In this document: piece after piece, positions 1 to 28,533 of the stretch
Position numbering within the stretch: position 1 is the stretch's first letter
How the letters are laid out: the number at the start of each line of letters is the position of its first letter
Virus record (IMG/VR): IMGVR_UViG_3300041809_000716
Location: 1 to 41,803 of that record
Strand: one strand, 5' to 3'
Length of the DNA: 41,803 nucleotides
Source of the DNA: a virus
Made by a program: the position numbers and the translations under genes
Notes under the pieces: generated by a model
Database searches by the model: none
Seen by the model: only the letters and a program-made list of their open reading frames with translations
Told to the model about the DNA's origin: nothing

Positions 1-291
1 CGCCGCCCACGTCCCGCCGCCGCTGCCGTTGTCGGTAAGGGAGGAGCCGCCGGGAAACGTCAAAATATTACCCGAGCCTGTAATCGTGGCCCCGCTGGCG
101 AGAATAGGCCCGGTCCCGTTTCCGATCAGGATGTCGGTCGCCGCGAAGCTCGAAGGGCTGTAAGGGCCAGATCCCGGGATGCTCGTGTTGATCTGGAGGA
201 CCGCGCTGCCTGCCCCCGGAGTGATAGCTCCCTGCCCGAAGCAGGCAGCGGCCAGCGCAACTGATAATAGAATTGAAATAAGCTTTTTCAT
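1..291 (-). CDS. Exported fibre-type protein, 3' end cut by window edge
   Basis: Only the first 97 codons lie in the window; the frame stays open to base 1. The product starts with Met-Lys-Lys and a hydrophobic stretch of about 16 residues ending near Ala-Cys-Phe-Gly-Gln, a good Sec signal peptide (likely signal peptidase I; the residues before Cys do not make a clean lipobox). The rest is rich in Gly, Ser, Thr and Ile, with short beta-like phrases such as GNGTGPILASGATITGSG, typical of phage fibre shafts. It starts 3 bases after the stop of the upstream exported gene and is the third signal-peptide gene in a row. Role in receptor binding or surface display is inferred. The ORF and signal peptide are clear; the function is not. 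Confidence 0.75.
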   Translation of the reverse strand, partial: MKKLISILLSVALAAACFGQGAITPGAGSAVLQINTSIPGSGPYSPSSFAATDILIGNGTGPILASGATITGSGNILTFPGGSSLTDNGSGGGTWAA

Positions 292-294
292 TGC

Positions 295-717
295 CTAAGA
301 CGTCGGGAACGTGGTGCTGGCGTTCGACCCTGGAGAATCGTCGGTGTCGATGTCGATCTGTCCGGTTGCTCCGCTGCTTTCAAAGATTATGCGGATGGGC
401 CGATGCAACCCCGCACCGTTTGGCAGCGTGTTGATAGTATAGCTGGCACCAGCTGCAACCACGATGCCGCTGGTCGTCGTCGGGTCCGCCCCAGCCTTCC
501 CGGTCTGCTGGTCGGTGTAGGTGCTTCCGCCGTCGATCGTCATGCGGAAGGCCACCGTGGTATTGTTCTGAATGACGCACGTCTGCATGTACGTGCCGGG
601 GATAACGATCGTCTCCACGGTCGTGCTTGACAGGTTGTTCTTGACTGTGCCGATGCAGGCCCGCGAAGCCAAAGGCATCAGAAGGGCCAGCGAGAAAGTA
701 AGGACTCGAATTTTCAT
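295..717 (-). CDS. Small exported beta-rich protein
   Basis: 140 residues. Residues 1-20 form a signal peptide (Met-Lys-Ile-Arg, a Leu/Ala-rich core, then Ser-Arg-Ala before Cys21). The mature part is about 120 residues of Thr/Gly/Ile-rich sequence with two cysteines (Cys21, Cys47) that could form a disulfide after export. It sits 7 bases downstream of the 588-residue fibre gene and 3 bases before the next exported gene, so the three look like one unit. I do not recognise a family. It resembles in size and composition the other exported protein at 27246-27683. It could be a fibre tip, a fibre chaperone or a surface-exposed exclusion protein; nothing in the sequence decides among these. Confidence 0.75.
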   Translation of the reverse strand: MKIRVLTFSLALLMPLASRACIGTVKNNLSSTTVETIVIPGTYMQTCVIQNNTTVAFRMTIDGGSTYTDQQTGKAGADPTTTSGIVVAAGASYTINTLPNGAGLHRPIRIIFESSGATGQIDIDTDDSPGSNASTTFPTS

Positions 718-724
718 GTGTGGG

Positions 725-2491
725 TTACTGGCAGAGGACTTGGACGACTGTTCCGTTGACGTTCATGGGAAAAGAGTGGCCGACCGAGGCGGAGGAGGTG
801 CTGAGGGTGACGTCGGTTCGGATTTGGCCGCCGACATGGAGCTGGTCCGAGCCGTCGTCCGAACCCACGCCGAGTCCAGTCCGTCCCGAGGCGAAGAGAA
901 GGAGCGCTGTCGTCGAGGACGTGGTTTCGAACTGGTGGCTCGACGCCTCGTAGATAATGAGGTCGGCCTTGCCAAAGGTCGTGATGAGGCCTTCAGACCC
1001 ATCCCATCCGACGTTGAGCGAGTGCGATGCGGTTATGCCCCACTGATCGAAAAGGGAATTGCTGCCCGTCGTCACGTGGTTGAACGCCGTGACCGTTTGC
1101 AGCACCTTCCCGCTTGCCGCCGCGAGAATGAGGTTGTCGCCGCTCGCCGAGGTAATTCCTCCGGAACCGGCGGTGAGGCTCAGGGCGCTTAGGTTTCCGG
1201 AGGTGTCGGAGGTGAGCCCCGAATTGCTTCCGTAGGTGGTCGATCCGGTGAAATAAAGCAGCCGGGTGCTCGTACCGCCAGACAGGACCGCGGGGATTGT
1301 GTTTTGGGCATACCAGCCCTTTGTTCCGCTGCCGTTCGTGCCGTAAAAGTAGGAATTGCCAGGGGAAGCGGAATCGCCGGAAAGCGAGACTGTGCCCGAA
1401 CTGTTAGAGAGGCTGTCGATGAACGTGTACGTGTTTGCCGTTCCTCCCATGCCCGAAATCGCTATCGATCCTTCGGTCGTGCCCGAACAGGACAAAAACA
1501 GCGTCACGCTCCCGTTATTCGCCAAGGTCGAGGGAACACCTCCGCCTGCAACCCAAGAGGAATTGACCGTTATGGTCGCCGACCCCCCCGATAGATTGGT
1601 GATTGTTATGATCTGAAATCGTCCCGCGAGCATTCCGTCCGAACCCGACGGAGACAGGCTTATGCTCGATGTCGTAAGGCCGATGTTCGCATAACTTCCT
1701 TCGTCGAATCGGATTTGAACGTTTCCGCCGGTCGCGTAAGTGAGGGCATTGTATTGCAATGGCCCCGTCAGCGACAGGATGTTGAAATTGGCCGAGAAAC
1801 CGGCCGCAAGCAGGCTTGACGGCGAATAGCCGCTGTCCTGGATCAAAAGCCCAGTCGTCCCGTTGAACGCCGCCAAGTGCCCAGGAGCGGCGATTGACGG
1901 GCCGCTGACGTTGCCCAGCCCGGCGCTCGCCAGTGGGATGAAGGTCGGAACACCCAGGTTGCTGAATCCCAAAAGGCATCCCTCGCGCTGCGAAAGCGGC
2001 AGCACCCCGCTGATCGTCTCGTCCGGCTGGAACTGCAGGCCCAGCCCCTGATAGTTGGCCACGAGGCCGATTTGCTGCACAAGCATCGTCAGTTTGTCGA
2101 GGCCATTGCCGATCATCGCCGCTGTCAGCGGGCCGGTGTTCGTGAAAGTCGTCGTCTGGGTGAGCGGCACCGACCGCGTGACGGTGATCACGTCGCCGAT
2201 CTGCACGCCGTTTGTGCCGCCCGGGATCGTGATGACGTTGCCGGTATTCCCCCCCCCTCCCGTCACCGAGTAGTCGCTGTTCAAAACCAACTGCGTCGGC
2301 GGGCTGGTCTTGCTGTCGAGAACGAAAAGGTCGGCCGGAAATTGGAACGTGAAGGGGACGACCAGCGTTTGTGGATTCGATGATAGCGTGTATTGCGACC
2401 AAGTGGTCGAACTCGAAACGGTTGCCCGGGCCGCCGGGAGAACCGACAACGCCAGCGAAACGACCAAGATGAATGCTTTCAGGAATTTCAT
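725..2491 (-). CDS. Tail fibre-like protein with T7-type N-terminal domain behind a signal peptide
   Basis: 588 residues. Residues 1-23 read as a Sec signal peptide (Lys at 2 and 5, a Leu/Val/Ala core, Ala-Arg-Ala cleavage site). Residues about 29-150 resemble the virion-attachment domain of T7 gp17: a Tyr-x-Leu opening, a Val-Pro-Phe-x-Phe strand, Leu-Asn-Ser-Asp-Tyr, a Gly-Asp-x-Ile-Thr-Val-x-Arg strand and a closing helix. The middle holds phrases common in phage fibres (GHLAAFNGTTGLLIQDSG, about residues 205-225), followed by a Gly/Ser/Thr-rich shaft and a short C-terminal segment with a conserved-looking Asn-Gly-Thr ending. Its place after the internal virion genes matches gp17 in T7. 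The signal peptide is hard to reconcile with cytoplasmic virion assembly. Fibre identity is fairly secure; the attachment-domain match is by eye. Confidence 0.8.
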   Translation of the reverse strand: MKFLKAFILVVSLALSVLPAARATVSSSTTWSQYTLSSNPQTLVVPFTFQFPADLFVLDSKTSPPTQLVLNSDYSVTGGGGNTGNVITIPGGTNGVQIGDVITVTRSVPLTQTTTFTNTGPLTAAMIGNGLDKLTMLVQQIGLVANYQGLGLQFQPDETISGVLPLSQREGCLLGFSNLGVPTFIPLASAGLGNVSGPSIAAPGHLAAFNGTTGLLIQDSGYSPSSLLAAGFSANFNILSLTGPLQYNALTYATGGNVQIRFDEGSYANIGLTTSSISLSPSGSDGMLAGRFQIITITNLSGGSATITVNSSWVAGGGVPSTLANNGSVTLFLSCSGTTEGSIAISGMGGTANTYTFIDSLSNSSGTVSLSGDSASPGNSYFYGTNGSGTKGWYAQNTIPAVLSGGTSTRLLYFTGSTTYGSNSGLTSDTSGNLSALSLTAGSGGITSASGDNLILAAASGKVLQTVTAFNHVTTGSNSLFDQWGITASHSLNVGWDGSEGLITTFGKADLIIYEASSHQFETTSSTTALLLFASGRTGLGVGSDDGSDQLHVGGQIRTDVTLSTSSASVGHSFPMNVNGTVVQVLCQ

Positions 2492-2585: not shown

Positions 2586-2744
2586 TCAAGATTGCCTGAG
2601 AGTAAGAGGGTGGAGTTGAGCGAGCTTTAGGAACGGCCTGGGCTTGGGCGGGACAGCCCCCTTGTAGTGCGGAGTGGCCCCGCGGACTATCTTTCGCTCG
2701 GCATCCGTGAGCGGTCGAAGAGTGAGTAATTTTCCCTTGTTCAT
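2586..2744 (-). CDS. Small basic protein coupled to ATP-grasp gene (52 aa)
   Basis: 52 residues, starting at an ATG that overlaps the stop of the ATP-grasp gene (ATGA). The product is basic and proline-rich (a Pro-Pro-Lys-Pro-Arg-Pro run near residue 32), with Arg/Lys scattered throughout and no cysteine. I recognise no family. Direct coupling behind an ATP-grasp ligase-like gene makes it a conceivable substrate or partner, but that is conjecture. Support for being a real gene is the overlap and the fit between neighbours. Confidence 0.55.
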   Translation of the reverse strand: MNKGKLLTLRPLTDAERKIVRGATPHYKGAVPPKPRPFLKLAQLHPLTLRQS

Positions 2745-4030
2745 TTCGAAAAGCTGAAAACTTTGAGGCCGATCTCGTTTAACTTCTCCATTTCCTCCAT
2801 GGCGTTCTCGACAGGCCCGATGGCGAACTTGATGCCGTAACCCTCGATCGACTCGCCGGCCTCTTTCACCATTTCGATGGCTTCCTCCATGCTGTCACCC
2901 CAGCCTACGACCGCCCCGATCTCGGTCACGTCCTTCTCCAGGGGCAGCACGAATCGCTCCCCGTTGACCACTACGTAGTCGAACAGCTTGATGTTGCGGG
3001 CGAACTTTTCCGGGTAGATCACGGGCTGCAGTTTGCCGTTCGCCCCGCTTCCTGCCCATGCGCTCTTGAGGACGATTTGGGCGCCGAACTTCCCGGCCGG
3101 CTCGGGATCTACCAAGTTGCCGTCTGCCCCTTCCCAGACGATCTCGGCCAGGTTGAGATAGAACTCCTGATAGAGTTCGGACGGTGGGCTGCCCGCGCGC
3201 GTGCAGGCGTCGATCTGGTAGGGCACCTTGTCCTCTCCGATTCGGATCTCGCAGGACAGGAACCCGCGGTAGCCGTAGGTCGCAAAGTAGGGGGCCATCG
3301 TCTCGTTCCACCGACGCAAAGGCTCGGGGATGGCGTTCCAATCGACAAACTCAGCGCAGTAACCGAGATCCTTCACTTCGATCCCGAGGAGCGTTTTTGA
3401 CGGGTACTGGCCGTCGATGCAGTAGACGTCGGTTCCTATCTCCACCTTGTCCGGCAGGTCGTCCTCGACGATGAAAAGGCATGTCTCCTTGAAGGCGCCG
3501 AGTTCGGCCTGCAGGTCATCGAGCTTCGCGCTGACGCTCTCGGAGTTCGGGGCGAAAAACGTCTCGGTCAGCCCGCGCCACCTGTTGATCTTGACGTGCT
3601 GGTCCTTGTGCGTGGCCAGGTGCTTGCGTAGGGCATCCATGCCCTTCAGTTGGACCCATGGAGCGACCGGCAGTCCTTCCTTCTCCATGAGCTGCTTGCA
3701 GAGTTCCCGCCGCTGCTCCAATTCCTCGCCGTTGCGCGGGCCCCACACGCGCTTGCCGTACTTCTCCTCCAGTTCGATTTGAAGGGGGGCAAAACCAATG
3801 TCGGGGAAGATCACGATGTCCGCCTCCTTGAGGTGCGGCCCGAAGATCGAGTCCACCTTTTCGACGTTCGGCAGGCCGGTTCCCACCATGCCCTGGTTCA
3901 TCGTTACGAAAGAACCCGAGGTCGGGACGTGCAAGAACACCTTGCCGAAATCCCGTCCTAGCCTTTCCGCCAGACTCACGAAAAGCGGCGAACAAATCAC
4001 GAAAGCGACTTTGTCCTTGAGGTCAGTCAT
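2741..4030 (-). CDS. ATP-grasp enzyme, PurD-like
   Basis: 429 residues from the ATG that overlaps the previous stop (ATGA at 4027-4030); the longer open frame upstream is not used. The order fits ATP-grasp ligases: an N-terminal alpha/beta region (about 1-85), a central part with a Trp-Gly-Pro-Arg-Asn-Gly segment and a Lys-containing strand typical of the ATP-binding subdomain, and a C-terminal segment (about 255-300) resembling glycinamide ribonucleotide synthetase (PurD), with Gly-Phe-Leu-Ser-Cys-Glu then an Ile-Asp-Ala-Cys-Thr-Arg-Ala-Gly-Ser-Pro stretch. In PurD the matching stretch is Glu-x-Asn-x-Arg-x-Gly; here it reads Asp274-Ala-Cys276-Thr-Arg278, so a metal-binding Asn is replaced by Cys. 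The protein ends with a PurD-like C-terminal subdomain. Substrate unknown: purine intermediate or amide/peptide bond formation are both possible. The fold assignment is reasonably sure. Confidence 0.75.
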   Translation of the reverse strand: MTDLKDKVAFVICSPLFVSLAERLGRDFGKVFLHVPTSGSFVTMNQGMVGTGLPNVEKVDSIFGPHLKEADIVIFPDIGFAPLQIELEEKYGKRVWGPRNGEELEQRRELCKQLMEKEGLPVAPWVQLKGMDALRKHLATHKDQHVKINRWRGLTETFFAPNSESVSAKLDDLQAELGAFKETCLFIVEDDLPDKVEIGTDVYCIDGQYPSKTLLGIEVKDLGYCAEFVDWNAIPEPLRRWNETMAPYFATYGYRGFLSCEIRIGEDKVPYQIDACTRAGSPPSELYQEFYLNLAEIVWEGADGNLVDPEPAGKFGAQIVLKSAWAGSGANGKLQPVIYPEKFARNIKLFDYVVVNGERFVLPLEKDVTEIGAVVGWGDSMEEAIEMVKEAGESIEGYGIKFAIGPVENAMEEMEKLNEIGLKVFSFSK

Positions 4031-11862: not shown

Positions 11863-12308
11863 GTGACAACCCCACTCTCCGGCGGGTGGTAGTTTTCGAC
11901 GCCGACCAAAGGCTTTGCGTAAAGGCGGTGCCCGCAGTCTTCGGCAGAAGTCACGTACCCCATCTTCGACATGATGCGCTCCTCGCTACCCTTCGGCTTC
12001 ACGAAGGAAAGGACCGCGATGCACCCCTCGGCCTTGGCGACCGCCTCGAGATGCTCGTACAGCCCCTTCACGGCCATCAGGAGGTCACGGGAAAACGCGC
12101 ACTTCGGGTTCGTGGTCGTCCACTCGATGACGCCGATCTTGCCCGGGTCCATGTAGAGGAAGCTCGCGGCGATTTCCACGCCAGAAGCCTCGGCCATCCA
12201 CCCGCGCGGCAGTATCATCTTCGGGACGGCCAGAACATGGTGGTCCCTCCACCACGAGCAAAGCGTCTCGTAGTCCTCTTGAATAATAATGGGGCGAAAG
12301 TGTATCAT
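11853..12308 (-). CDS. GNAT-like acetyltransferase-fold protein, T7 gp13-position
   Basis: 151 residues beginning at an ATG that overlaps the nozzle stop (ATGA). The sequence follows the GNAT pattern: an N-terminal strand (Met-Ile-His-Phe-Arg-Pro-Ile), a helix with a Trp-Trp pair, a strand carrying a small-molecule-facing segment, a long helix (about 75-92) and a C-terminal Lys-Met-Gly-Tyr resembling the C-terminal GNAT motif. It lacks a clear Arg/Gln-x-x-Gly-x-Gly/Ala acetyl-CoA loop, so it may be inactive. T7 gp13 holds this position and GNAT-like annotations are common there. Its role in virion assembly or in modification of a virion or host protein is open. Confidence 0.65.
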   Translation of the reverse strand: MIHFRPIIIQEDYETLCSWWRDHHVLAVPKMILPRGWMAEASGVEIAASFLYMDPGKIGVIEWTTTNPKCAFSRDLLMAVKGLYEHLEAVAKAEGCIAVLSFVKPKGSEERIMSKMGYVTSAEDCGHRLYAKPLVGVENYHPPESGVVTCP

Positions 12309-15300
12309 GGGGTCGATGCGATGTCGTAGTCCACAGCCACGCCGCGGACGGTGAGTGGCAGCGGTCCCGATGTCGAAATTATAACCGGGATTGTCAGCCC
12401 GTAGTCCCCCGGGAAATCCGTGATTCGTTTATTGCCGGTGAAGAGCGGCGTCTCGGCCAACGGATCCGAGGTCTTTCGGAAGACGACTTCATGCTTCCGC
12501 GCCGACCCATCCGTCACCGTACAGGCGAGAGTATTCAATAGGCTCAAAGTCAGTCGGCAGACCTTCTTGATGAGACCCTGGGTGACTCCAGTGTGGACAT
12601 CCACGTCCAAGTTCATTGGCTGCACGGTGCTGGTGAACGGCAGGCCGATCTGGGCCACCTGCTCGACCTCGCTGTTCGGCGTGAAGTTCGGCACCACGAT
12701 ATCCCCGCCAGCCGTTCCGGTTCCTGTCCCTGGTCCTGTGGCTACGAAGAGCAAGCCCACGGTATTTGAGACGGCGCCGATGGCCGTGAAGTCGGTAGTT
12801 CCAATGGTCAGGATCTGGTAGACGTTCCCGGTCACGAAAGTTCCAGCCTGCTGGGACACGGGAAATAACCCGTAATCCTGAGCGTTGATGCACACGGCGA
12901 CCGTGCGGCCAGTGAGGTAGGCAAAACCCGGAAAGACATTGCTCGTTGGGCTAACGAAGGTCAGGCCGCAGTCCACATAGTAGGCTTGATCCTTGTCCGG
13001 CCCATAACCCGGAGTCTGTCCTGGCTGTGGTATAATGGACTGCCAGTTGATGGGGTTCATGCGCTCCATGAAGCGTGTGGAGACACCGTTGATCGTGCGG
13101 TTTACGACGCACCAGACCTCATCGTCATTCGTGCCAGTCCCTGGGATCGAACAAACCGACTCAAAACCTGCGTCCGTGACGGTATTCTGCCCTGGCTCCC
13201 AATTGTTCGTATCGTTTGCCGGATCGACGGTGCTGCCCGAGATGTTATTGATGCACTCGTACACGTTTTGATTGAGCAGCGACGTGGCGAACTGCCCCAC
13301 GGTGTAGCTCGCGCCGCTCATCCACGGCTGCGTTACCAGGGGGCTATTCAGGCCGGTGTAGTGGCGGTGCCAGCCGAAGATTTCCTGGTCCAACTCGTAG
13401 GTCATCCCGACCATCTCGCCATTGAGCGTCGTGGCCCAGACAAAGCCGTTTTTCTGCCCCTGCTCCTGGTAGGCCAGTTGAATCGCCCCGCCGTTTAGAA
13501 CTTCGTCGGAAAGCGCGGTCAAATCCTGGCTCATGTACTTGTTGGTCACCACCGAGTAGAGCATCTGCCTTAGAGACACGGCCTGACGCTGGGCGAATAC
13601 CAGGGCATCCCCGACGACTTTGGCGGGAACATTCGGATTGCTCCCCCACTTGGATTGGCGCTGGGCATTGATATTCTGGGGGGTGATGGCCTGCGAGCCA
13701 TCGCCGGCCGAGACGACCCACTCGGCAGTCGAGAGCCCGAGGAAGAGAGCGTCCTGGCTCTGCATCCAGAGGATCGCCCCATCCCCAACGGCATCGAGAT
13801 CAAAGGCCATCCCATCGGTCGCCAGCGTCTGGTCGCCAAGATCCCAGTTTTGGATGTCGTCCGTCTGGGTGCCCCAGATCCGCTGCGGCTCGAAGGCCGT
13901 GAAGCCGCACCACACCCTCTGCTGAAACGCTGTGGTGCACGCAGGATAGCCGCGCACGGCCGACCACGCGCCCTCGGACCAGTAGACCGTGGGCCATCCA
14001 TCTGCCAGCCAGTCTGTCGGATCGCTCGGGGGAGGAGTGCTTCCGGAGGTGTCGTTGATGCAGATGTAGTTCACCCCGTTGTAGCCAACCCGGTCCCCGC
14101 CCAAGTAGCCGTTGCCGCTTATCCACTCGTCGGCCACCGTCAGTGGCGTGATCACGGTGGCAACCGCATGGTAGGCGTCGGTCACCGCCGTTATTTGGAC
14201 AATGCCGTAGAGGAAGGCGTCGACGCACTCAAAGACGATGCGTGGGTTCGTCGGACCAGGGGTGATAGGAACCGCGACATTCGTCACCACTATCTGGTAA
14301 AGCTGCGGCTGATCTGCTGTTCCGGCTATATCCACATTGCGGTCATTCCTGCCCGTCACGGTGCTCACCGACTGCCAAGTGTTACCTCCATCGTCTGAAC
14401 TCTGGATTTCGATGTCGGCCGACCAGACGCCGTAGGTATGCACTTCCCAGGTTCCAAAGGCAGTGATTGTGCTCGATGTGCCCGCAGAGAAGCCACTGGC
14501 TGCCGTACCATCATATTCAACGTAGGCCGAGTCCCGAAGGTAGGAGAGTTCCCAGTAGGCTCCCACATGGCCAGAAAGGAAGATCGGTGTCTCGGTCCAG
14601 TCTCCGTCAGCCAGATCCACCGCAAAAATGTTTGATGTGTGTGGGACGTTGCACTCGTAGATATTACCACCCTCGAGCACCGAATCCCCGACATCGTAGT
14701 AGGTATCCGTCACCCAGGCAGGAGCGGTGGCGGTGAGGTTGGTTGATCCCGATGCCGAGGATGCCGCGATGGTTGTGTCGGTCGCATTTTCATCCAAAAG
14801 AGGAGGGGTCAGGTCTTGGACAACGGCATAGACCCAGTCGGTGTCCGAGTAGCGAGTAAGGGAAGCTCTCGGGTAGTTCGGGTGGCTGATGTAGATGACG
14901 TCGTTTATGTCGCAGAACTGGAGTTGGAAAACGTCCGTGGCCGCGAGGCCACCTGCCCCGACCAAGGCCCCATAGGGGGTTTCTAACTCAAGCGGACTAT
15001 TCGTAGACCAATGAGCCGTGTCCAGATCAGGGGTGACAATGCTGTTGGGCAGCCCCACGAGGCATCGGTAGGAGACGCCCGAGTAATTCACGAAATCTCC
15101 CAGAGCGTAGGTGGACCCAGAGTTCCAAACGGGAGGAGCGAAGGTGGTTGGCGTAGGGTTTGGAACCTGAACCTGCGCTCCGTTGGAATAGAATCTCACG
15201 TAATTGTGCCCCCACTCCATGACGAACTTCGTGTTGGTCGAGAAGATGAACTCCTGCGAACGCGCGCAGTAGTCGCCAGCCCCGATGTATTTGGTCGGCG

Positions 15301-15469
15301 CAATCATTTGAAGCCCCAGCCTGCGTGTCGCCGGACCTGTCTTTAGCGCCAGCATGTTCCTTAGCTGGATGCAGGCCGCGCGGTACTTCTGCTGGTCGAC
15401 GCGAGCGGTGAGCGTGGGGGACCATTCCCCAGCGCTAAATGAAACAAGGGCTTCTGTGGATTTCGCCAC
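12305..15469 (-). CDS. Tail nozzle (tubular protein B, gp12-like) with four CBM5/12-like insertions
   Basis: 1054 residues, larger than T7 gp12 (794). The N-terminus has the nozzle signature: Phe-Ser-Ala-Gly-Glu-Trp-Ser-Pro (11-18), Arg-Val-Asp-x-x-Lys-Tyr, Asn-Met-Leu and Gly-Pro-Ala-Thr-Arg-Arg-Leu-Gly. Four segments share a Trp...Tyr-x-x-Gly-(Asp/Gln)-x-Val...Gly...Tyr-x-Cys...Trp pattern at residues 115-154, 252-291, 449-487 and 716-757, resembling CBM5/12 chitin-binding modules. Residues about 873-920 hold a Gly-Thr-Thr-Asp-Phe-Thr-Ala-Ile-Gly-Ala module that recurs in many phage tail proteins. It follows the adaptor gene by 3 bases and overlaps the GNAT gene by 4. It should form the hexameric tip of the tail tube; the inserted modules probably project outward. 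Nozzle identity is strong; the module family is by pattern. Confidence 0.85.
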   Translation of the reverse strand: MAKSTEALVSFSAGEWSPTLTARVDQQKYRAACIQLRNMLALKTGPATRRLGLQMIAPTKYIGAGDYCARSQEFIFSTNTKFVMEWGHNYVRFYSNGAQVQVPNPTPTTFAPPVWNSGSTYALGDFVNYSGVSYRCLVGLPNSIVTPDLDTAHWSTNSPLELETPYGALVGAGGLAATDVFQLQFCDINDVIYISHPNYPRASLTRYSDTDWVYAVVQDLTPPLLDENATDTTIAASSASGSTNLTATAPAWVTDTYYDVGDSVLEGGNIYECNVPHTSNIFAVDLADGDWTETPIFLSGHVGAYWELSYLRDSAYVEYDGTAASGFSAGTSSTITAFGTWEVHTYGVWSADIEIQSSDDGGNTWQSVSTVTGRNDRNVDIAGTADQPQLYQIVVTNVAVPITPGPTNPRIVFECVDAFLYGIVQITAVTDAYHAVATVITPLTVADEWISGNGYLGGDRVGYNGVNYICINDTSGSTPPPSDPTDWLADGWPTVYWSEGAWSAVRGYPACTTAFQQRVWCGFTAFEPQRIWGTQTDDIQNWDLGDQTLATDGMAFDLDAVGDGAILWMQSQDALFLGLSTAEWVVSAGDGSQAITPQNINAQRQSKWGSNPNVPAKVVGDALVFAQRQAVSLRQMLYSVVTNKYMSQDLTALSDEVLNGGAIQLAYQEQGQKNGFVWATTLNGEMVGMTYELDQEIFGWHRHYTGLNSPLVTQPWMSGASYTVGQFATSLLNQNVYECINNISGSTVDPANDTNNWEPGQNTVTDAGFESVCSIPGTGTNDDEVWCVVNRTINGVSTRFMERMNPINWQSIIPQPGQTPGYGPDKDQAYYVDCGLTFVSPTSNVFPGFAYLTGRTVAVCINAQDYGLFPVSQQAGTFVTGNVYQILTIGTTDFTAIGAVSNTVGLLFVATGPGTGTGTAGGDIVVPNFTPNSEVEQVAQIGLPFTSTVQPMNLDVDVHTGVTQGLIKKVCRLTLSLLNTLACTVTDGSARKHEVVFRKTSDPLAETPLFTGNKRITDFPGDYGLTIPVIISTSGPLPLTVRGVAVDYDIASTP

Positions 15470-15472
15470 GGC

Positions 15473-16381
15473 TTATCCTGCCGTTGAACCCCAACGGGAA
15501 CGGAGGAAATTCGACTCCCTCGTTGGATCGTACCGCCGGTCCTTTCGCTCGCCAGCGTCCTTCATGCGGGCGTTCGGAAGCACGTCGGTCACGAATCGCT
15601 GTCTTAGCTCCTGGGCCATCTTCCCATCGTCGCCGCGGATTACCGTGGAAATCTTGGACGCGAGAATGATCGCCAGGGCTCCGACAAAGAGCGGGTCGTA
15701 GATCGTCGTGTCCTGGATGAACGCCGTGTATTTCACATCCGCGTTCGGCGCGTTGCAGAAGAGACAGAGCTGGTTCGAGGTCGACTGGTTGGCTGGGTTC
15801 GGCGTCTGGACGACGTAGATTTCATAAAGGCTCCCCAGACCCCGCTGCTCGGTGCAGTCGTTGCCATTGAGTTCGGTGATCAAGAGATAGTCATTCGGCA
15901 GCGCGAAGGCGTTGCGCCACTCGTACATTCCTCCAGCATTGCCGGTGTTCGTCCCGTAGAAACTGGAGTAGATTTGCGCCCAGTAGCCGGCCGTCAGGTC
16001 GTTTATGAAATTGAACCCCGAAGTATAGGTCAGCAGGCAGTAGTAGATTGCCTCGCCGTAGGTGACGAGCGTGCCGCCAGTGTAGGCGGTGTGGGCCGCC
16101 CAATAGGGCGGGGGAGTGGTGGGAAGGGTCCCGGGCCATCCGAACCACGTCTGGGTGTTTCCGGGCAAAGGGGGAGTAAGAGGGGCAAGGTTCTGCCGCT
16201 TTTTTAGGCAGTTCCAGTTGTGGGCCCGGCCCGTCTCTCGGACGGACTGCCAGAAGGCCGCCGAACCGGCCAAGGCCCGGGGCTCGTTCGTGTCGTCGAT
16301 CGAGTCGACCGCGGGGCTACCTACCTCCTGCAGGGCCAAATTAAGGATGTCTGTCGGCGAAAGGGGAGCGTAGGCGGCCAT
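15473..16381 (-). CDS. Tail adaptor (tubular protein A, gp11-like) with one CBM5/12-like insertion
   Basis: 302 residues against 196 in T7 gp11. The N-terminal helix with Asp-Ile-Leu-Asn-x-Ala-Leu-x-x-x-Gly-Ser-Pro-x-Val-x-Ser-Ile (11-28), then Glu-Pro-Arg-Ala and a His-Asn-Trp-Asn-Cys, is characteristic of the gp11/gp4 adaptor family that sits between portal and nozzle. Extra length comes partly from residues 94-134, which repeat the Trp-x-x-x-x-x-Tyr-x-x-Gly...Tyr-x-Cys...Trp pattern found four times in the nozzle. A Lys-Asp-Arg-Arg-Tyr-Asp-Pro ending is near the C-terminus. Order adaptor-nozzle matches T7. Confident. Confidence 0.85.
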   Translation of the reverse strand: MAAYAPLSPTDILNLALQEVGSPAVDSIDDTNEPRALAGSAAFWQSVRETGRAHNWNCLKKRQNLAPLTPPLPGNTQTWFGWPGTLPTTPPPYWAAHTAYTGGTLVTYGEAIYYCLLTYTSGFNFINDLTAGYWAQIYSSFYGTNTGNAGGMYEWRNAFALPNDYLLITELNGNDCTEQRGLGSLYEIYVVQTPNPANQSTSNQLCLFCNAPNADVKYTAFIQDTTIYDPLFVGALAIILASKISTVIRGDDGKMAQELRQRFVTDVLPNARMKDAGERKDRRYDPTRESNFLRSRWGSTAG

Positions 16382-17375: not shown

Positions 17376-18293
17376 TCAAACGGTCTCGTCCGACGCGATG
17401 GTGCCGACTCCGGCCTCCTCCGTGCGGGTGAGATCCAAGAGCATGACCGTGCGGATTTGCAGGGCGTGCTTCTGGGTGGCGATGACGTCGACGTGCGTGC
17501 GGGTGTCCGACCCGATGCCCATCTTCAGGAAACGCTTCTGCCAGAAAATGCAGGTGCGGATTCCGGCCGATGTCACCGGGAGGAGCTGGGTCAACTTGAA
17601 GTCGAACCCGAGGAAACGCTGGATCTTGCCGTCGACCAGAGCCTTCACGTCGTTGTACAGGTAGTTCGCAACTTGGTCCACGTTGGTCAGCAGGTTGTTC
17701 AACTGCTTGGCCGAGTAGCCGAGGAAGCGATCCATCTGCGGGACTTCGTTCGAGTCCAGCACGTAGCGGGCTTGCGTCATCTTTTTCAGCGTCATGCCGA
17801 TGTTGACCGAGCCGTTTCCGAAGGTGACGGCGATCTGGTTTGCGGCCAGAAGCTGAACCTGAGTCGTGCCGTTCGGTCCGGTGAAGTTCGTGCCCGTGGC
17901 GCCGTTGATCAGGACGATGTCCTTGTTGCGGTTCGCCACCGTCGCATGGGTCATGATCGCCGGACCCTCGGGGTCGGGCAACTCGCCAAGCGCAACCGGG
18001 TCGAACTCGTCGTAGATCGTCGTCTTGTCGTAGGGACGCGGACGCAGCCACCGCTGGCCGGTCGGAATGTTGCTTGGTTGGGACGGGCCAGCGCGGTCTG
18101 TGACCTCGCGCATGACGTCCGTCGAAGAGCCGTAAAGGTCGATCCGGAAATAGGCCCCCTTCACGTTCTTGAGTTCGTATGTTCCAGCAAATCGCTGATC
18201 GAGTTGCTGCGCCACCACCTGGTGCCAAGTGTCGTCAAACTGCGTTTGAAAATCTTGGACTAGGCTCGGCCAGACTTGTCCTACACCAGCCAT
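17376..18293 (-). CDS. Major capsid protein
   Basis: 305 residues. The N-terminus (Phe-Gln-x-Gln-Phe-x-Asp near 15-20, then a Gln-Gln-Leu-Asp-Gln-Arg segment) and the general pattern resemble the podoviral capsid family often annotated simply as phage capsid protein (HK97 fold expected). Other typical parts are a Tyr-Asp-Glu-Phe-Asp strand near 93-97, a Lys-Lys-Met-Thr-Gln-Ala-Arg helix near 170 and an Ile-Gln-Thr/Arg-Thr-type C-terminal beta segment. Position after scaffold and co-chaperonin genes, in its own unit between two terminators, is what is expected for the most abundant structural protein. No Shine-Dalgarno is visible directly upstream of its ATG, which is odd for a strongly expressed gene. 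Identity is by context and sequence character. Confidence 0.8.
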   Translation of the reverse strand: MAGVGQVWPSLVQDFQTQFDDTWHQVVAQQLDQRFAGTYELKNVKGAYFRIDLYGSSTDVMREVTDRAGPSQPSNIPTGQRWLRPRPYDKTTIYDEFDPVALGELPDPEGPAIMTHATVANRNKDIVLINGATGTNFTGPNGTTQVQLLAANQIAVTFGNGSVNIGMTLKKMTQARYVLDSNEVPQMDRFLGYSAKQLNNLLTNVDQVANYLYNDVKALVDGKIQRFLGFDFKLTQLLPVTSAGIRTCIFWQKRFLKMGIGSDTRTHVDVIATQKHALQIRTVMLLDLTRTEEAGVGTIASDETV

Positions 18294-18583: not shown

Positions 18584-19204
18584 TCAGGCAGCTTTTTCGG
18601 CCCTTCGGTCCTTTCTGTCAAAGGCTTTCTTCGCATCGTCCCAGACGCCGATGATGTCGTTCTCGTTGATGATGGTGAACATTTCGTCGCCGAACCGGAC
18701 CTCGGATCCGGCGTAGCGGTTGAGCAGCACGCGGTCTCCGGCCTTCAGCTTGAATGCAATTCGGTTCCGACCCGTGCCCTTGCCGTGGCCAACCGCGACG
18801 ACCTCAACCCCTTGGCGCTCCCGATGGACTCCCGCGGGGATCCAGATGCCCTTTCGGATTTCCTCCTTCTCCCTGATGTGCTTGATCAGGATGCGGTCCC
18901 CGATGGGCAGGCATGCCCCTTTGTGCACGATGCAGTTCACGTGGCGCTCGCGGATCGCGTACACCATCTGGCCATTCAGCTCGAAGCGAAACTCCCCTTC
19001 GACGAAGTTCTGAATCCACACGACCTGCCGTTTCTTGAGCAGACAGTCGGGACCGGCCGCGACCACCGGGCACCTGCCATATTGTCGAGCGGTGTCCGGC
19101 AGTTCGATGCCGCCGAGTGTTGTCTTTGCCTCCTTGATCGGCCGCAGGATCAGCCAGTCCTGCATGGGCCGAAGGGTGCCGGTGAACTGCTGCGCGCCGA
19201 ACAT
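18584..19204 (-). CDS. Tandem double GroES-like co-chaperonin
   Basis: 206 residues holding two GroES (Cpn10)-like domains. Domain 1 (about 12-93) has Leu-Arg-Pro-x-x-Asp-Trp-Leu-Ile-Leu-Arg-Pro, a mobile-loop-like Thr-Leu-Gly-Gly-Ile-Glu-Leu-Pro-Asp-Thr-Ala (29-39) and Val-Val-Ala-Ala-Gly-Pro. Domain 2 (about 100-188) has Ile-Gly-Asp-Arg-Ile-Leu-Ile-Lys, a loop with Gly-Ile-Trp-Ile-Pro (119-123), Val-Glu-Val-Val-Ala-Val-Gly-x-Gly, Leu-Lys-Ala-Gly-Asp-Arg-Val-Leu, and an Ile-Asn-Glu-Asn-Asp-Ile-Ile-Gly-Val ending. Both loops keep the hydrophobic I-x-L/I tripeptide by which GroES binds GroEL. Phage GroES substitutes (T4 gp31) enlarge the folding cage for capsid protein; here the gene is between scaffold and capsid genes. 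Double-domain forms are known in chloroplast Cpn20. A 13-residue basic C-terminal tail follows. The start is at 19204, sharing one base with the scaffold stop. Confidence 0.85.
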   Translation of the reverse strand: MFGAQQFTGTLRPMQDWLILRPIKEAKTTLGGIELPDTARQYGRCPVVAAGPDCLLKKRQVVWIQNFVEGEFRFELNGQMVYAIRERHVNCIVHKGACLPIGDRILIKHIREKEEIRKGIWIPAGVHRERQGVEVVAVGHGKGTGRNRIAFKLKAGDRVLLNRYAGSEVRFGDEMFTIINENDIIGVWDDAKKAFDRKDRRAEKAA

Positions 19205-20178
19205 CAGGCGGGCACCGCTTTTTTGCGGCGCTCGTTGAACAGCCGATAGAGTTCGTTCACCCGGTCCTTGGCTGCCTCGTGCTGCGGGTGCTCGCTCTCG
19301 TGCCATGCCTTATACATGGGGTTGTTCGGGTTGTTCATCACGTCAAGGGCCTGCTGGCGCTCGTTCGCTCCCGCGCCTTCCACCGCATCGCCTTTGATCA
19401 ACCGGTCCTCGGAGACCAAGTTTGTGAACCGCACGCAAGCCGCCCGCACCGATGCGTCCCTGAAGAGGTTGCTCTTCGGATCGATGCCGAGTGTGGCGGC
19501 GCCTCGGGTGGCCAGGTTCATCGCCTTGTCCTGGTCGATCCCGGCCTTCTGCATCGCCTGGGCGAAGACGTTATCCTGGTTGGTCCAGTACTGCGACTCG
19601 TAGGTCTGGGCGGCGGCAATCTCCTGGCGGGTGGCCTGGAGCTGCATGTTCATCAGCTCCTTAAACTGCGACGGCCCGATGCTCAACTTCTGGGCGAGAG
19701 CCGCCCATCCGGCCACTTGGTCATCGCGCCAGAACTTGGCGTCCAAGTCGTCCGGCTTCGTGATTCCGTAGGCCTTCACCAACTCCGCAGGCTCCTTGGC
19801 GGTCGGGACGTTGTTGATCAGGTTCAGGTGCGCGGTGCGTTCGGCGATCTGCTGGGGGGTCGCGTCGGGAGGAAGCGGAGTCATCGCCTTGGCGACCGCC
19901 ATCTTATTCGCCGCCGCGGCTCCGCCAAACAATCCTTCAAGAGTCTCGTATTTCCCGAACCAGTCCTTGTGGGCCTTGATCGCCTCGGGCGCCTTGTCCC
20001 AAACATCCTTGTTGATCTTCCCATCCGCTCCATAGAGGCCATCAAACCAAGGCTTATCGCCAGCGGGCGGCGGAGGAGGAGGTGCACCACCCGGGGGCGG
20101 AGGCGGCGGGGAACCGCCGGGAGGAGGAGGGGGCGGCGCGCCGCCAGGAGGAGGAGGATTTGCGTCAGCCATGGTCAC
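19204..20178 (-). CDS. Scaffold-like protein with polyproline N-terminus
   Basis: 324 residues from a GTG that overlaps the previous stop; an ATG two codons in (20172) is an alternative start. Residues 8-38 are four blocks of four to six prolines separated by Gly-Gly-Ala or Gly-Gly-Ser. The rest is Ala/Gln/Lys/Glu-rich and helical, with a Leu-Ile-Asn-Asn-Val-Pro segment, Gly-Ile-Thr-Lys-Pro-Asp-Asp-Leu, an Asn-Pro-Asn-Asn-Pro-Met-Tyr stretch and a basic C-terminus with Arg-Arg-Lys-Lys. A charged, mostly helical protein of about 300 residues between portal and capsid genes is the usual signature of a podoviral scaffold; scaffolds carry capsid-binding basic C-termini. No catalytic motif is visible. 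The proline repeats are unusual for the family. Confidence 0.75.
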   Translation of the reverse strand: MTMADANPPPPGGAPPPPPPGGSPPPPPPGGAPPPPPPAGDKPWFDGLYGADGKINKDVWDKAPEAIKAHKDWFGKYETLEGLFGGAAAANKMAVAKAMTPLPPDATPQQIAERTAHLNLINNVPTAKEPAELVKAYGITKPDDLDAKFWRDDQVAGWAALAQKLSIGPSQFKELMNMQLQATRQEIAAAQTYESQYWTNQDNVFAQAMQKAGIDQDKAMNLATRGAATLGIDPKSNLFRDASVRAACVRFTNLVSEDRLIKGDAVEGAGANERQQALDVMNNPNNPMYKAWHESEHPQHEAAKDRVNELYRLFNERRKKAVPA

Positions 20179-21119: not shown

Positions 21120-22925
21120 TTATGCCGCGGCTTGGCCGGGATTGGTCTGCGGGATCGACTCGGACACCTGATCCTGAATCTGCTGCGGGGCCTTTCCGAG
21201 CTTGCCGGCCGCATTCGCCGCCTGTTCGGCCAGGTCCATGGCGCGCTGCTGTGCTGCCTGCTTGGCCCGCGCGGCACGCAGGGCGATCACCTGCTTGAAC
21301 GGACGCTCGAAGGCGGCCGACATTCCTTGGTTGATGGCGAAGGTGCGGAACGCCGCGTCCAGATCCCAGTTGTCCAACAGCTCGGGCTTCTTCATCGCGT
21401 CCGCGGCCTGGATGACGAACTGCAGGGTGTCCATCGTGGCCTTGTTCTGGAGGGCCTTGAGAGCTAGGGCTAGGCGGCTCGTGTAGGTGATTTCCGGCAT
21501 GGCCAGCCGCATCTTGTTTTTCATCCCCGGGACCGGGACGTACATCGACCTCGGAGGCTTCGGGAACTTGCCCGCACGAAACAGGATTCCGAAGATGCGC
21601 TTCAGGTCCGGGCCCGTCTTTTCCGAGATCAGCCGCATGAACATCGGGCTTAGCTGCTCCAGTTTTTCCCCCATGACCTGCGAGATCCCATAGGCCGTTG
21701 CCTTCGAGACATCGATCTGGGAAAGAGCTTTGAAGACGTCGACGTAGAACATCCGGTGGACGGCCTGCTGCTTGCCCTCGATCGACTTCTCGGTGCCAAC
21801 GACATCGGCCTCGGTCATCCACTCTTCGGGCTTTCCCCCGCCCGGAAGATTCGGGTCAAAGCTGGTCCGTCCCCCCGGGCGAAGGTCAACCTGTCCCCAG
21901 AGGCCGATGGGTTCCAAGATTCTCGGGTTGGCGCGCAGTTCTATCTGCCCATCGGAGAACCGCACCATGTAGTTCAACTGCCGGACGTTCGGCAGCGTCT
22001 CGAAGGCCGGCGAGTATCCCCATGGCGAGCCCGTTCCCCACTCGTCGAAGCGAGTTACGGAATCGGGCATCTCGTCGTAGCCGGAGATTCGCACGCAGTC
22101 TTTTTCGTCCATGTCGATGTAGATCGAGGCAATCGGCTTGTTGCGGCCATCCATCTTCATCGGGTCGCGCTCCATCTCGGCGCGCGGGCGGATCGAGTGG
22201 AGGAACTTGAACTCTTTGTCCATGTCCTTGCCGCCTGGGCTCAGGTAGGCATCGCGGCATTTCTTGCAAAGGTTCTCCGGACCGAAGGCCTGCGCCGCTT
22301 GCCGGGCCGTCAGTTTGAACTCGGCATAGACGGTATCGACTATCTCCTCTTCGTCGTTCGCTATGCAGTAGGTCGAAATCTTCCGGCTCCGGCAGTTGAT
22401 CGTCGTGTGCTTGCCCTCCTCGATATGCATGTGCCCGGTGCCGAAGACCGTGCGGCTCTTGTACTGCGTGCCGCTCACCCGATAGTAGTTCGACCGCGAA
22501 AGCTCATCGAGCGCAATCTGCGTACAAATGCCGGTCCAAATCGCCCCATCGTCGTCTTCCTCCATGTTGAGGAACTTCGGCGGTGTCCAGGCGAACCACG
22601 GCTCGGTCGCAGGGGTGGCCCAGTTGGATTGCCCGGTCGTGCAAATCCGGGCATCCTCGATCGCCGTCGTGTCGTAAAGCCTGTCACTCCACCCGCTAGT
22701 GCCTTCCGTCTTCTCGTTGTCTATATCACTCATGTTCGGCAGATAATAATTCGATAAACTCTGCCAAGCAGAATCCCAGATTCCTGTGCGTGCGTTCCGC
22801 AGCTTCTCGTAGCGGGACAACTCCTGGTGGGCCAAGTCGGGATCGCTGTGCGAACGGGGCGGAGGTGCTTCGCCCGACGGTGCCCTGGTGATGTCTTGCA
22901 CGGTATCTACGGCGATGTCGGGCAT
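21120..22925 (-). CDS. Portal (head-tail connector) protein
   Basis: 601 residues, the usual length for T7-type and Bbp-type connectors (500-700). The N-terminal region has Leu-Arg-Asn-Ala-Arg-x-x-x-Trp-Asp-x-Ala-Trp-x-x-Leu-x-x-Tyr-Tyr-Leu-Pro, followed by Leu-Tyr-Asp-Thr-Thr-Ala-Ile and Trp-Phe-Ala-Trp-Thr-Pro, typical of the phage head-to-tail connecting family. It carries Asn-Val-Arg-Gln-Leu-Asn-Tyr and a Pro-Arg-Ile-Leu-Glu-Pro segment in the wing/stem region, then a C-terminal helical Ala/Gln-rich barrel. Twelve copies form the vertex through which TerL pumps DNA. TerL is encoded three small genes upstream. Confident. Confidence 0.9.
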   Translation of the reverse strand: MPDIAVDTVQDITRAPSGEAPPPRSHSDPDLAHQELSRYEKLRNARTGIWDSAWQSLSNYYLPNMSDIDNEKTEGTSGWSDRLYDTTAIEDARICTTGQSNWATPATEPWFAWTPPKFLNMEEDDDGAIWTGICTQIALDELSRSNYYRVSGTQYKSRTVFGTGHMHIEEGKHTTINCRSRKISTYCIANDEEEIVDTVYAEFKLTARQAAQAFGPENLCKKCRDAYLSPGGKDMDKEFKFLHSIRPRAEMERDPMKMDGRNKPIASIYIDMDEKDCVRISGYDEMPDSVTRFDEWGTGSPWGYSPAFETLPNVRQLNYMVRFSDGQIELRANPRILEPIGLWGQVDLRPGGRTSFDPNLPGGGKPEEWMTEADVVGTEKSIEGKQQAVHRMFYVDVFKALSQIDVSKATAYGISQVMGEKLEQLSPMFMRLISEKTGPDLKRIFGILFRAGKFPKPPRSMYVPVPGMKNKMRLAMPEITYTSRLALALKALQNKATMDTLQFVIQAADAMKKPELLDNWDLDAAFRTFAINQGMSAAFERPFKQVIALRAARAKQAAQQRAMDLAEQAANAAGKLGKAPQQIQDQVSESIPQTNPGQAAA

Positions 22926-23880: not shown

Positions 23881-25535
23881 GCCAGTATGCTCCTTGGTTT
23901 CGGCCGCCAGTCGCCGCGGGCCGCATTCCAACCGGCCAGGATGACCTTGCGTTCGCCGCCCTGGCTCTGGCGGGCGATCATGCTCGTGCCGGGCAGCAGT
24001 CCTTTTAGCTCGGCTTCCGCCAGGCAGCGGAGGGCATCGGCTCCGTGGCTGTTCTCGTCGTGGACCGGCATCTCCTTGATGACGCCGCTGCTCGCGTCCT
24101 GCTTGGTGTGGTAGCCTTCAAGGCAACCGATGCCGGATGGCATGATGCGACCCTCGTGGAACCACTCTGTTCCGCAGTTCGTCTTATGGAAGACGAAGCG
24201 AGGGAGCAGGGATCGGAGACGCTGGATGCCGAGCCATTTGTCATCGCAGACGGTCACGACCTGGGTGTTCGGCAGTCCGCACTCGCGCAGATAATCCCGA
24301 TAGCTTTTCCCGCTGAGTTCTTTCGAGTCGGCGTCGTGCGGCAGGAAGTTGGTCTGCACGACCGTCTCGTAGCGGCGCTCCCACTCGCGGACCACCGCGG
24401 AGTAGTAGGGCGGATCCTCCCCGCAGTTGCAGCGGTAGGCCAAGACCCAGAACTCGGTGCCCACGAGCTGAACGAGCCAGATCGACGTGAAGTCGGAGCG
24501 GCCGATGTCCCAGAAGGTCAGCAGCGGATTGTTGCGGTCGTGCTCGAAATCGACGATCCGCTTCTTCGCCCGAAGCTGGGTGATCAGCTTACCGTAGATC
24601 GAACCCGAAACGACGGCCTCGAAGCACTCCTCCACGACCGACGGATACTCTTTGAGGATCGACTCGCCGATAGTCTGCTTCTTTTTGACGTACCAGTACA
24701 TCTGCTCGCGGGTGAGCTTGATGCCGCGCTGGGCCAGGCGCTCGAAGTATTCGGCGTCTTCCTGGCTGAGCTTGAACCACTGATCGACCGCCAGCGTGTA
24801 TTTGCGATGCCTCCACCACTCGAAGAAATGGAACCGCCAGTCCATGGCCGACAGCGGTTCGCGGGCCTCCATGGCGATCCGATTGAAGTGGTACGAGACT
24901 CCGAATTTCCCGCCCTCGTGCGAGGATTCGATGACGACCGTGTTGCCTGGGTGGACAGTGTTGACCGCGCCCTTCTTGATTTCCTCCGCGCGCTCAGGGT
25001 CGTAGAACGAGATGTAGGCCAGCTCCGTCACCCAAAGGAACTGCAGGGTGCCACCGCGCATGTTTGTGCCGCACCAGACCTTCGATCCGTTCTTCCACTG
25101 CATTTCCTTCTTATTGTCGAAGACGAGAGGCACAGAAGCTTTGATCAGCGCACCGATGCCCGAGGTCGTCGGGTCGTCTGCATCGTCCAGGTGCTCGTAG
25201 GCGAAGCTGATCTTGGCAAGCTTGCGCTTGCCGTCGTCGTCCGTCTTGTCGATCACGCCGCAGGTTTTGTTTCCCGAGAAGAGGCAGAAGTCCAACACCC
25301 GGATGGCGACGTAGGTCGAGATCCCGATCTGGCGGGTCTTCAGCACATCGTTCAAGCAGTGCCAGTTGTTGTGAAGCGCCACCTGCTCCTCGTTGGGGTG
25401 AAACTTCACCTTCCGGCCGTTCTCGTCCTCGATCCAGTAAAGATTGTCCAAACGCCACGCTTGGCTGGCGAGCTTCCGGCGTATCTCCTCGCGGGCCGCT
25501 TCCTCGGACACGTGGAGTTGGTCGGCGTCGGTCAT
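23877..25535 (-). CDS. terL: Terminase large subunit
   Basis: 552 residues, normal for TerL. ATPase part: a variant Walker A, Leu-Lys-Thr-Arg-Gln-Ile-Gly-Ile-Ser-Thr (65-74), a Walker B-like Phe-Leu-Trp-Val-Thr-Glu (166-171) and a Glu-Ser-Ser-His-Glu-Gly-Gly coupling motif (203-209). Nuclease part: Phe-Trp-Asp-Ile-Gly-Arg-Ser-Asp (342-349, metal-binding Asp344), a Pro-His-Asp-Ala-Asp segment (400-404) and a final His-Asp-Glu-Asn-Ser-His-Gly-Ala-Asp-Ala-Leu-Arg (493-504, Asp501). It docks on the portal and cuts the genome when the head is full. Unusually it follows the tailspike gene and is about 9.5 kb from the putative small subunit. The start shares one base with the tailspike stop. Confidence 0.92.
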   Translation of the reverse strand: MTDADQLHVSEEAAREEIRRKLASQAWRLDNLYWIEDENGRKVKFHPNEEQVALHNNWHCLNDVLKTRQIGISTYVAIRVLDFCLFSGNKTCGVIDKTDDDGKRKLAKISFAYEHLDDADDPTTSGIGALIKASVPLVFDNKKEMQWKNGSKVWCGTNMRGGTLQFLWVTELAYISFYDPERAEEIKKGAVNTVHPGNTVVIESSHEGGKFGVSYHFNRIAMEAREPLSAMDWRFHFFEWWRHRKYTLAVDQWFKLSQEDAEYFERLAQRGIKLTREQMYWYVKKKQTIGESILKEYPSVVEECFEAVVSGSIYGKLITQLRAKKRIVDFEHDRNNPLLTFWDIGRSDFTSIWLVQLVGTEFWVLAYRCNCGEDPPYYSAVVREWERRYETVVQTNFLPHDADSKELSGKSYRDYLRECGLPNTQVVTVCDDKWLGIQRLRSLLPRFVFHKTNCGTEWFHEGRIMPSGIGCLEGYHTKQDASSGVIKEMPVHDENSHGADALRCLAEAELKGLLPGTSMIARQSQGGERKVILAGWNAARGDWRPKPRSILA

Positions 25536-27245: not shown

Positions 27246-27683
27246 TTACTGAGCCGATGCAGAGCGTCCTATCTCGTGCCAGTTCGAGCCGTCGGAAACC
27301 CACGTCATGCTGATCGACTTGCCCGCCGTCACGACCGCTGTAGCTGTCGGCAAGAAGTACGTCCCGAGCGTGTAGGTCACGGTCCCGCTGGCGTCGGCCG
27401 ATAGGATCGTGATCAAGAACTGCCCGAACTGCCCGGTCTGGCCGGCGTTCACCGTGCAGGTCGCCGAGGTGGTGTTGACCCCCAGAATCTGATGTACGGC
27501 GCCGAGCGACGGATTGAGAGTGATCGTCGCCGCGAAGGTCGAGTGGAGGATCGGGGCACCGGGTCCGCCCGCAATCTGCGCGAGAGGTGCGGCCGGCTGG
27601 TTGTAGATCGTCGCCTGGGCGTGGACGGAAGCGGCGAAAACAATCAGGGCTGCCGCGAAGAGGAATGAGGAGAACTTTTTCAT
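27246..27683 (-). CDS. Exported beta-rich protein
   Basis: 145 residues from ATG 27683; an open frame extending to 27770 is not needed. Residues 1-22 are a clear Sec signal peptide (Met-Lys-Lys, Phe/Ala/Leu core, Ser-Val-His-Ala cleavage). The mature part is Thr/Ala/Gly/Ile-rich with Cys at about 81 and a C-terminal Ser-Met-Thr-Trp-Val-Ser-Asp-Gly-Ser-Asn-Trp-His-Glu-Ile-Gly, a phrase frequent at the ends of phage fibre or decoration proteins. It resembles the exported proteins at 1-2491 in design. It lies between the GT11-like gene and the tailspike unit. Confidence 0.8.
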   Translation of the reverse strand: MKKFSSFLFAAALIVFAASVHAQATIYNQPAAPLAQIAGGPGAPILHSTFAATITLNPSLGAVHQILGVNTTSATCTVNAGQTGQFGQFLITILSADASGTVTYTLGTYFLPTATAVVTAGKSISMTWVSDGSNWHEIGRSASAQ

Positions 27684-27735: not shown

Positions 27736-28533
27736 TCAAGAGTCCCTGAGCCGCAGTTCGGAATGCCCAACCCACCACTCGGTCAGGGGCGCGTGGTTGC
27801 CTTCGATGAACGGTACGTCCTGAAAACCTCGGTCTGAGCCTTCATGGGAAATGCCTCGCTGGTCCGGGCTGAAGACTCGATCGTGATTTCCAAGCTCGGC
27901 CGCCCACCAGCTAAAGGTCGAAGGCGCTCGGAACAAAACCTTGGCACGCATCAGCAGAACGAAGTCTGGCAGGAAGCCTATGCCTGGGATGTGGTCGCTC
28001 GCACGTCCCTTCCAGCGGAACATGGGGTCAATATGCGGCACGGTGCTGGGCTCCTCCTCAGAGACGAACACGAGCTTGGCTCGGTCCACCCCATACTGAT
28101 CGCAGGCCCGGAGGTACGAATCTTTGCTGATGCAAATGAATCCCCCGTGCGTCACATAGTCGCCCCAACGTAGGTGCGCTGCAGCCTCAACCGTCGGCAC
28201 CGAACGAAGCAGGTCTAGAATCTCCGGCCGGAACTTGAACCATCGCCGTGCATCCGCCCGCGTGTATATCAGGTGCTTGCCGTGCTGCGGATCGCCCCGG
28301 ATGCAAACGTCCACCCGCCCGTTCCACTGCTCGAACTCGAACGTGCCAACCTCGGGCAGTCCGTTTGGGTACATCGGCATTGTCTCATGCTCGATCCCGA
28401 ATATCTCATGGGCCTGCGGCCAGGGGCTCGTGCGCAGCGTGCAGCCGTACTGCTCAGCGTACTTGCGGGCGAATGCGTATTTAAACAGTCGATTTCCCCA
28501 GCCCCCGCTCATCTCGCAGTCGATGAAGGGCAT
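27736..28533 (-). CDS. GT11-family glycosyltransferase (fucosyltransferase-like)
   Basis: 265 residues, typical for bacterial alpha-1,2-fucosyltransferases. Motifs in order: Gly-Gly-Trp-Gly-Asn-Arg-Leu-Phe-Lys-Tyr-Ala-Phe-Ala (10-22; family consensus GGLGNQ-FQYAFA), His-Leu-Arg-Trp-Gly-Asp-Tyr-Val (120-127; consensus HxRRGDY, with the second Arg replaced by Trp) and Ser-Thr-Phe-Ser-Trp-Trp-Ala-Ala-Glu-Leu (205-214). The enzyme would transfer a sugar, usually fucose from GDP-fucose, to a glycan acceptor in the cytosol. The Arg-to-Trp change sits in the nucleotide-sugar site and could alter donor use. Last gene of the surface-sugar cassette. Confidence 0.85.
   Translation of the reverse strand: MPFIDCEMSGGWGNRLFKYAFARKYAEQYGCTLRTSPWPQAHEIFGIEHETMPMYPNGLPEVGTFEFEQWNGRVDVCIRGDPQHGKHLIYTRADARRWFKFRPEILDLLRSVPTVEAAAHLRWGDYVTHGGFICISKDSYLRACDQYGVDRAKLVFVSEEEPSTVPHIDPMFRWKGRASDHIPGIGFLPDFVLLMRAKVLFRAPSTFSWWAAELGNHDRVFSPDQRGISHEGSDRGFQDVPFIEGNHAPLTEWWVGHSELRLRDS

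Follow-up and report, generated by a model that had tools for sequence, protein, structure and literature searches.

In the accepted picture, tail fibres are synthesised in the cytosol and joined to the phage particle there, and their export has no place in the textbook account of assembly. The fibres and tailspikes of the T7 gp17 type, including T7 gp17 itself, the epsilon15 tailspike, Dpo36 of phage Carin-1 (8ck1) and the pelagiphage fibres, carry an N-terminal attachment domain that is like that of the fibre described here in both sequence and fold. Location in the structural region and a variable C-terminal adhesin part are further features that the gp17-type podophage fibres have in common with it. 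The known cultured relatives are leaderless and begin at M/TVSS, whereas this fibre has a Sec signal peptide in front.

Cleavable signal peptides are found on virion proteins of the filamentous phages, the pIII and pVIII coat proteins. These are assembled in the membrane and extruded through it, whereas the phage here is tailed and its fibre would be soluble after cleavage. PblA and PblB of the Streptococcus mitis phage SM1 are tail-fibre-type proteins that are active outside the cytosol, yet they are without a signal peptide and reach the surface through lysis. Signal sequences like those of the genes described here are present on other phage-encoded exported proteins, such as SAR endolysins, spanins, Lom and the lipoprotein Llp, but these are not virion fibres. 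The mosaic adhesive trimeric (MAT) fibres of Bdellovibrio are phage-fibre-like trimers that are exported with signal peptides, which are adjoined, as in the fibre studied here, by a beta-rich domain of approximately 130 amino acids, the domains being likened by description (PMC10769870). The S74 chaperone is part of some MAT proteins and of one related fibre (L031), but is absent from the proteins studied here. The MAT genes belong to a predatory bacterium, which uses the fibres to invade its prey, whereas the present proteins are phage-encoded beside virion genes. In a study of phage DGR proteins, missing signal peptides were taken as support for the phage origin of adhesin genes (PMC6199706). 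No report of signal peptides on tail fibres was found in the literature searched, an absence that does not amount to proof.

The window, meaning the whole stretch of 41,803 nucleotides analysed, is the 41.8 kb record of an uncultured podophage (IMGVR_UViG_3300041809_000716) with no flanking bacterial DNA. The presence of TerL, portal, capsid and tail genes identifies it as a phage record. Its structural genes are all on the minus strand and encode the terminase, portal, a GroES-ended protein, the capsid, tail tubes A and B and an internal virion protein. The portal/head-tail adaptor (21120–22925, minus strand, phrog_332), major capsid protein (17376–18293, minus strand, phrog_3437) and tail tubular protein A (15473–16381, minus strand, phrog_394, E=1e-26) are without signal peptides. 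So is tail tubular protein B, the nozzle (12305–15469, minus strand, phrog_376, E=7.7e-126), which is the customary docking site for gp17-type fibres. A second adhesin, a tailspike of the pectate-lyase type with PF12708 and PHROG tail spike matches (25535–27052, minus strand), also lacks a signal peptide and serves as a contrast case. Tail tube B contains three stretches that match the carbohydrate-binding module CBM5/12 (E=1.8e-18), which is unusual in a nozzle protein. Adjoining the capsid gene, the product of 18584–19306 (minus strand) has its GroES (Cpn10) domain at residues 134–221, behind an additional N-terminal part.

Three consecutive genes with signal peptides, at 725–2491, 295–717 and 1–291, occupy the low-coordinate end of the window, and a fourth is located away from these at 27246–27683, all on the minus strand. 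The preliminary description had placed the first three correctly; the gene at 1–291 is cut at the contig edge. According to the PHROG annotation of its neighbours, the fibre gene at 725–2491 sits among podophage virion genes.

Signal peptides were called by a rule of our own, based on the charge of the n-region, the hydrophobic core and an Ala-x-Ala-like site in the c-region. The strict form was calibrated on 107 E. coli K-12 proteins from three genome stretches, where it recovered 15 of the 18 precursors of exported proteins or lipoproteins that are known as such, and flagged none of 89 other proteins. In the window, 5 of the 47 genes called are flagged: the four named above and 2741–4030, where the flag is probably a false positive on a cytosolic-looking protein. 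The Sec-type signal peptides that had been proposed for the three consecutive genes, and the same plan proposed for 27246–27683, are thus all recovered. The predicted cuts lie between MKFLKAFILVVSLALSVLPAARA and TVSSST in the product of 725–2491, between MKIRVLTFSLALLMPLASRA and CIGTVK in that of 295–717, between MKKLISILLSVALAAA and CFGQGA in that of 1–291, and between MKKFSSFLFAAALIVFAASVHAQA and TIYNQP in that of 27246–27683. A positive n-region, a hydrophobic core and an Ala-x-Ala-like site, features of Sec export and cleavage by signal peptidase I, are all present in the fibre. The flagged gene at 2741–4030 (minus strand), directly ahead of the fibre gene, encodes a 429-amino-acid protein without a family match, and the start of a gene ahead of the fibre in L034 (6642–7985; PLFVSLAER) is similar to its start.

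The fibre encoded at 725–2491 is 588 amino acids long, with a predicted signal peptide at residues 1–23 (2423–2491, minus strand), an attachment domain at residues 24–150 (2042–2422, minus strand) and a fibre shaft and tip thereafter. PHROG tail profiles cover residues 24–150, the match to phrog_1640 having an E-value of 1.6e-15 over profile positions 2–123. Among phage tailspikes of solved structure, Dpo31/Dpo36 (8ck1, 28lx) is matched by a profile of the fibre family at E=4e-31 over tailspike residues 1–130. The AF2 model (pLDDT 79.5) has a helix at residues 2–16, a beta-rich domain and then a long helix. Its best 24 Foldseek matches in the PDB all represent the portal-tail, tail or fibres of phages, among them structures of Carin-1, LME-1, PhiM1, Kp9 and T7 gp17 (7boz, 7ey7, 7ey9), with scores of 1.6e-7 for 9efk, 2.7e-6 for 8ck1 (TMt 0.80) and 8.6e-4 for 7boz, and a TMt of 0.74 for 7ey7. 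The top matches in a viral structure library are likewise phage fibre-type proteins. The suggestion of a gp17-like structure is therefore borne out, and the domain proposed at about residues 29–150 is found, with its start at 24 rather than 29. The proposed comparison with PF03906 gave no Pfam match at E<=0.1 for the 588-residue protein. A match to PF03906 is not itself defining for a gp17-like domain, which is supported here by PHROG profiles, the PDB profile match and the fold. On these features the protein is an otherwise ordinary T7 gp17-like fibre, to which the first 23 residues have been added.

The junction of the two parts is precise. Position 2 of the PHROG tail profile falls on residue 24 of the fibre. 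The 23-residue signal peptide precedes the domain, and the TVSS residues come directly after Ala-Arg-Ala (ARA/TVSS). The start is M/TISS, M/TVST or M/TVTS in the fibres without signal peptides of cultured phages (pelagiphages, epsilon15, BcepC6B and a Klebsiella phage). A cut after Ala-Arg-Ala would therefore restore the N-terminus that these relatives have after the initiator methionine. Independently of our alignment, the PHROG profile places the start of the domain exactly at the predicted cut, which is at residue 24 in this fibre and at residue 27 in the fibre of L074. In the alignment-based set the cut and the domain boundary coincide in 10 of 11 fibres with signal peptides, which is weaker evidence because the Ala-x-Ala site was visible when these boundaries were chosen. 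In L030, the closest relative, the profile boundary is the same, but the long, odd N-terminus is not called by the rule, and the signal peptide would be lost if translation began at an internal ATG (MARATVSS).

Signal peptides are present on 11 distinct fibres, those of the window, L031, L032, L033, L038, L041, L042, L046, L070, L074 and L190, and the state of L030 is ambiguous. In a tree of 50 N-terminal domains the signal peptide requires four changes of state, forced by well-supported branches; L030 is counted there as having one, L190 is left out, L070 is a long branch, and gain and loss are indistinguishable. The close kin L035 and L040 are without a signal peptide, which is therefore not required by the fold. 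Apart from L070 itself, no relatives of L070 were found. L074 is located in a delta-proteobacterial MAG and has a prophage-like appearance, and L190 is a virus record with a fibre of the L074 type. Paired cysteines at positions equivalent to 36 and 92–94 of the window fibre are present in L070, L074 and L190 and in no row without a signal peptide; this hints at a possible disulphide. The other fibres with signal peptides are poor in cysteine.

Each of 12 related virus records has exactly one gp17-like domain, so that the protein with the signal peptide is the sole gp17-type fibre of the genomes concerned. A tail tube B gene was looked for in 14 virus records and found in every one, as well as in an Armatimonadetes MAG; the search for it in the delta-proteobacterial MAG gave no match. 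Tail tube B together with the single gp17-like domain indicates that these records are phages and not bacterial adhesin loci. One query with a signal peptide matched 45 records (Vibrio, pelagiphage and enteric) and another matched 111; among those examined, no cultured relative has a fibre with a signal peptide. Host genomes were searched in the phyla of the two MAG matches, G023 and G024. For G023 the phylum gave a gp17-like domain in 16 of 395 genomes and for G024 in 1 of 291, and of 18 matches examined in the former only that of G023 has a signal peptide.

Signal peptides are also concentrated around the fibre genes. Across eight genomes they are predicted for 25 of 47 fibre-module genes and 7 of 304 genes elsewhere (odds ratio 48), the module having been delimited after looking at the data and near-threshold false calls occurring on both sides. 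The downstream genes with signal peptides are fibre-like, having PHROG tail matches, T4-type TPTAPTA...TTQIATTAFV repeats and glycine-rich tips. In L034 and L073 a short adaptor without a signal peptide is followed by genes that have one. In L063 (8700–14492) five consecutive signal peptide genes, most with a Shine-Dalgarno-like site, follow a gp17-like adaptor that lacks one. The central claim of the preliminary description, that gp17-type fibres here carry Sec signal peptides, thus stands and extends to several lineages and to downstream fibre genes. The observation is confirmed; the interpretation given to it is partly supported.

Within the window, 295–717 encodes a predicted exported beta protein of 140 amino acids, whose homologues in the fibre regions of G001, G007, G011 and G017 keep the signal peptide, so that it is retained in five genomes. 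Its structure model has weak jelly-roll-like matches only. A pelagiphage structural protein of 109 amino acids was considered as a homologue without a signal peptide and is unsupported (hhalign probability 0.2). The gene at 1–291, known from the gene call and the rule, is the start of a third fibre-like gene. The 145-amino-acid product of 27246–27683 has a C-terminal motif, NWHEIGRSA, resembling NWYEVSRSA in a 671-amino-acid signal peptide protein of G018, and a below-threshold match to the C-terminal sandwich of a depolymerase.

Export of the fibre is well supported by its predicted signal. The add-on nature of this signal, its match to the domain boundary, the anchor fold, the recurrence and the restriction to the fibre module can all be read from the sequences. 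We infer from these that cleavage, folding outside the cytoplasm, docking at or after lysis and presence on the virion follow. In the proposed mechanism, fibre-module proteins would use the Sec pathway, and the 588-amino-acid fibre, made with a cleavable signal peptide, would cross the inner membrane. A cut at ARA/T24 would give the N-terminus that related fibres gain by loss of the initiator methionine. The fibre trimer would then fold beyond the cytoplasm, which in a diderm host means the periplasm. Head, portal and tail tube would be built in the cytosol as a fibreless particle, and the fibres kept ready outside, with the adjoining small exported proteins, would dock on its tail nozzle at or after lysis. 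We consider it moderately probable that the fibre parts are Sec-exported, trimmed, folded outside the cytoplasm and docked in this way. There is a slightly better than even chance that this is a new assembly route for tailed phages, with a receptor-binding module that is Sec-exported, processed by signal peptidase and added at or after lysis, and that has arisen several times. Docking on virions is favoured by the intact attachment domain, by the location of the signal peptide on the genome's only gp17-like gene and by the predicted cut that restores the N-terminus. Docking after lysis would dilute the fibres, which counts against this explanation. The preliminary description had offered attachment after lysis as one of three options, and this is the one now preferred.

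The exported proteins might instead never join the virion and, staying with the envelope or in the medium, act as receptor blockers, either excluding superinfection or freeing progeny from debris. Export to the envelope or surface is what a signal peptide does, and PblA and PblB of S. mitis are fibre-like proteins that work off the virion. The same is true of the Bdellovibrio MAT fibres (PMC10769870), and the window has an additional tailspike without a signal peptide. A blocker would not need the attachment domain, however, which is conserved and is the only gp17-like one in the genome, and several of the linked signal peptide genes resemble distal fibre parts. This explanation is therefore considered unlikely. 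A dual use, in which some of the fibre leaves the cytosol to serve as decoy or blocker while some docks on virions, fits all of the sequence evidence, and genes with and without signal peptides share one fibre module in L034 and L063. A cytosolic form would need a second start, yet L041 has no further start codon between that of the signal peptide and the domain. Alternative starts in the other fibres are mostly TTG or GTG, with an internal ATG in L030, L032 and L074, making dual use decidedly improbable. Positive residues ahead of the hydrophobic stretch would also suit an uncleaved membrane anchor, another of the earlier options, but the cores are short and Ala-x-Ala lies exactly at the start of the conserved domain, so that an anchor is very improbable. 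Misassigned start codons or a chance resemblance, with the leader untranslated or no signal at all, would agree with the weak Shine-Dalgarno sequence at the window fibre start and the possible internal ATG start in L030, but are scarcely credible given L041, the ribosome sites (Shine-Dalgarno-like sequences) immediately upstream of the signal peptide starts in L063 and L070, and the recurrence at four positions in the tree. A Shine-Dalgarno-like sequence also precedes the internal ATG of L074 (MKKFF), and this too counts in favour of the export reading.

If docking of exported fibres is correct, a recurrent fibre class with a precisely added signal peptide would imply assembly in two compartments. 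The recognition of phage receptor-binding proteins in metagenomes would change, and fibre maturation would be open to periplasmic conditions, including disulphides and glycans.

At the end of the signal peptide fibre of L031 (8001–9788) there is a self-cleaving chaperone of the S74 type, and behind it a hydrophobic segment forms the C-terminus. This arrangement recalls S74 proteins with a membrane anchor and would fit folding at the membrane. Beside the signal peptide gene at 27246–27683 in the window, the cluster at 27736–32295 (minus strand) encodes a family-2 glycosyltransferase, an FkbM methyltransferase and a second methyltransferase, which could modify fibre or host glycans. The N-terminus encoded by 33766–34059 (minus strand), MNRRSFFRFLGLAPFVPIAA, resembles a twin-arginine (Tat) signal, and its product has no Pfam match. 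The reading frame at 41425–41802 (minus strand), at the contig end, begins with a long Arg-Gly repeat and represents a simple-sequence end.
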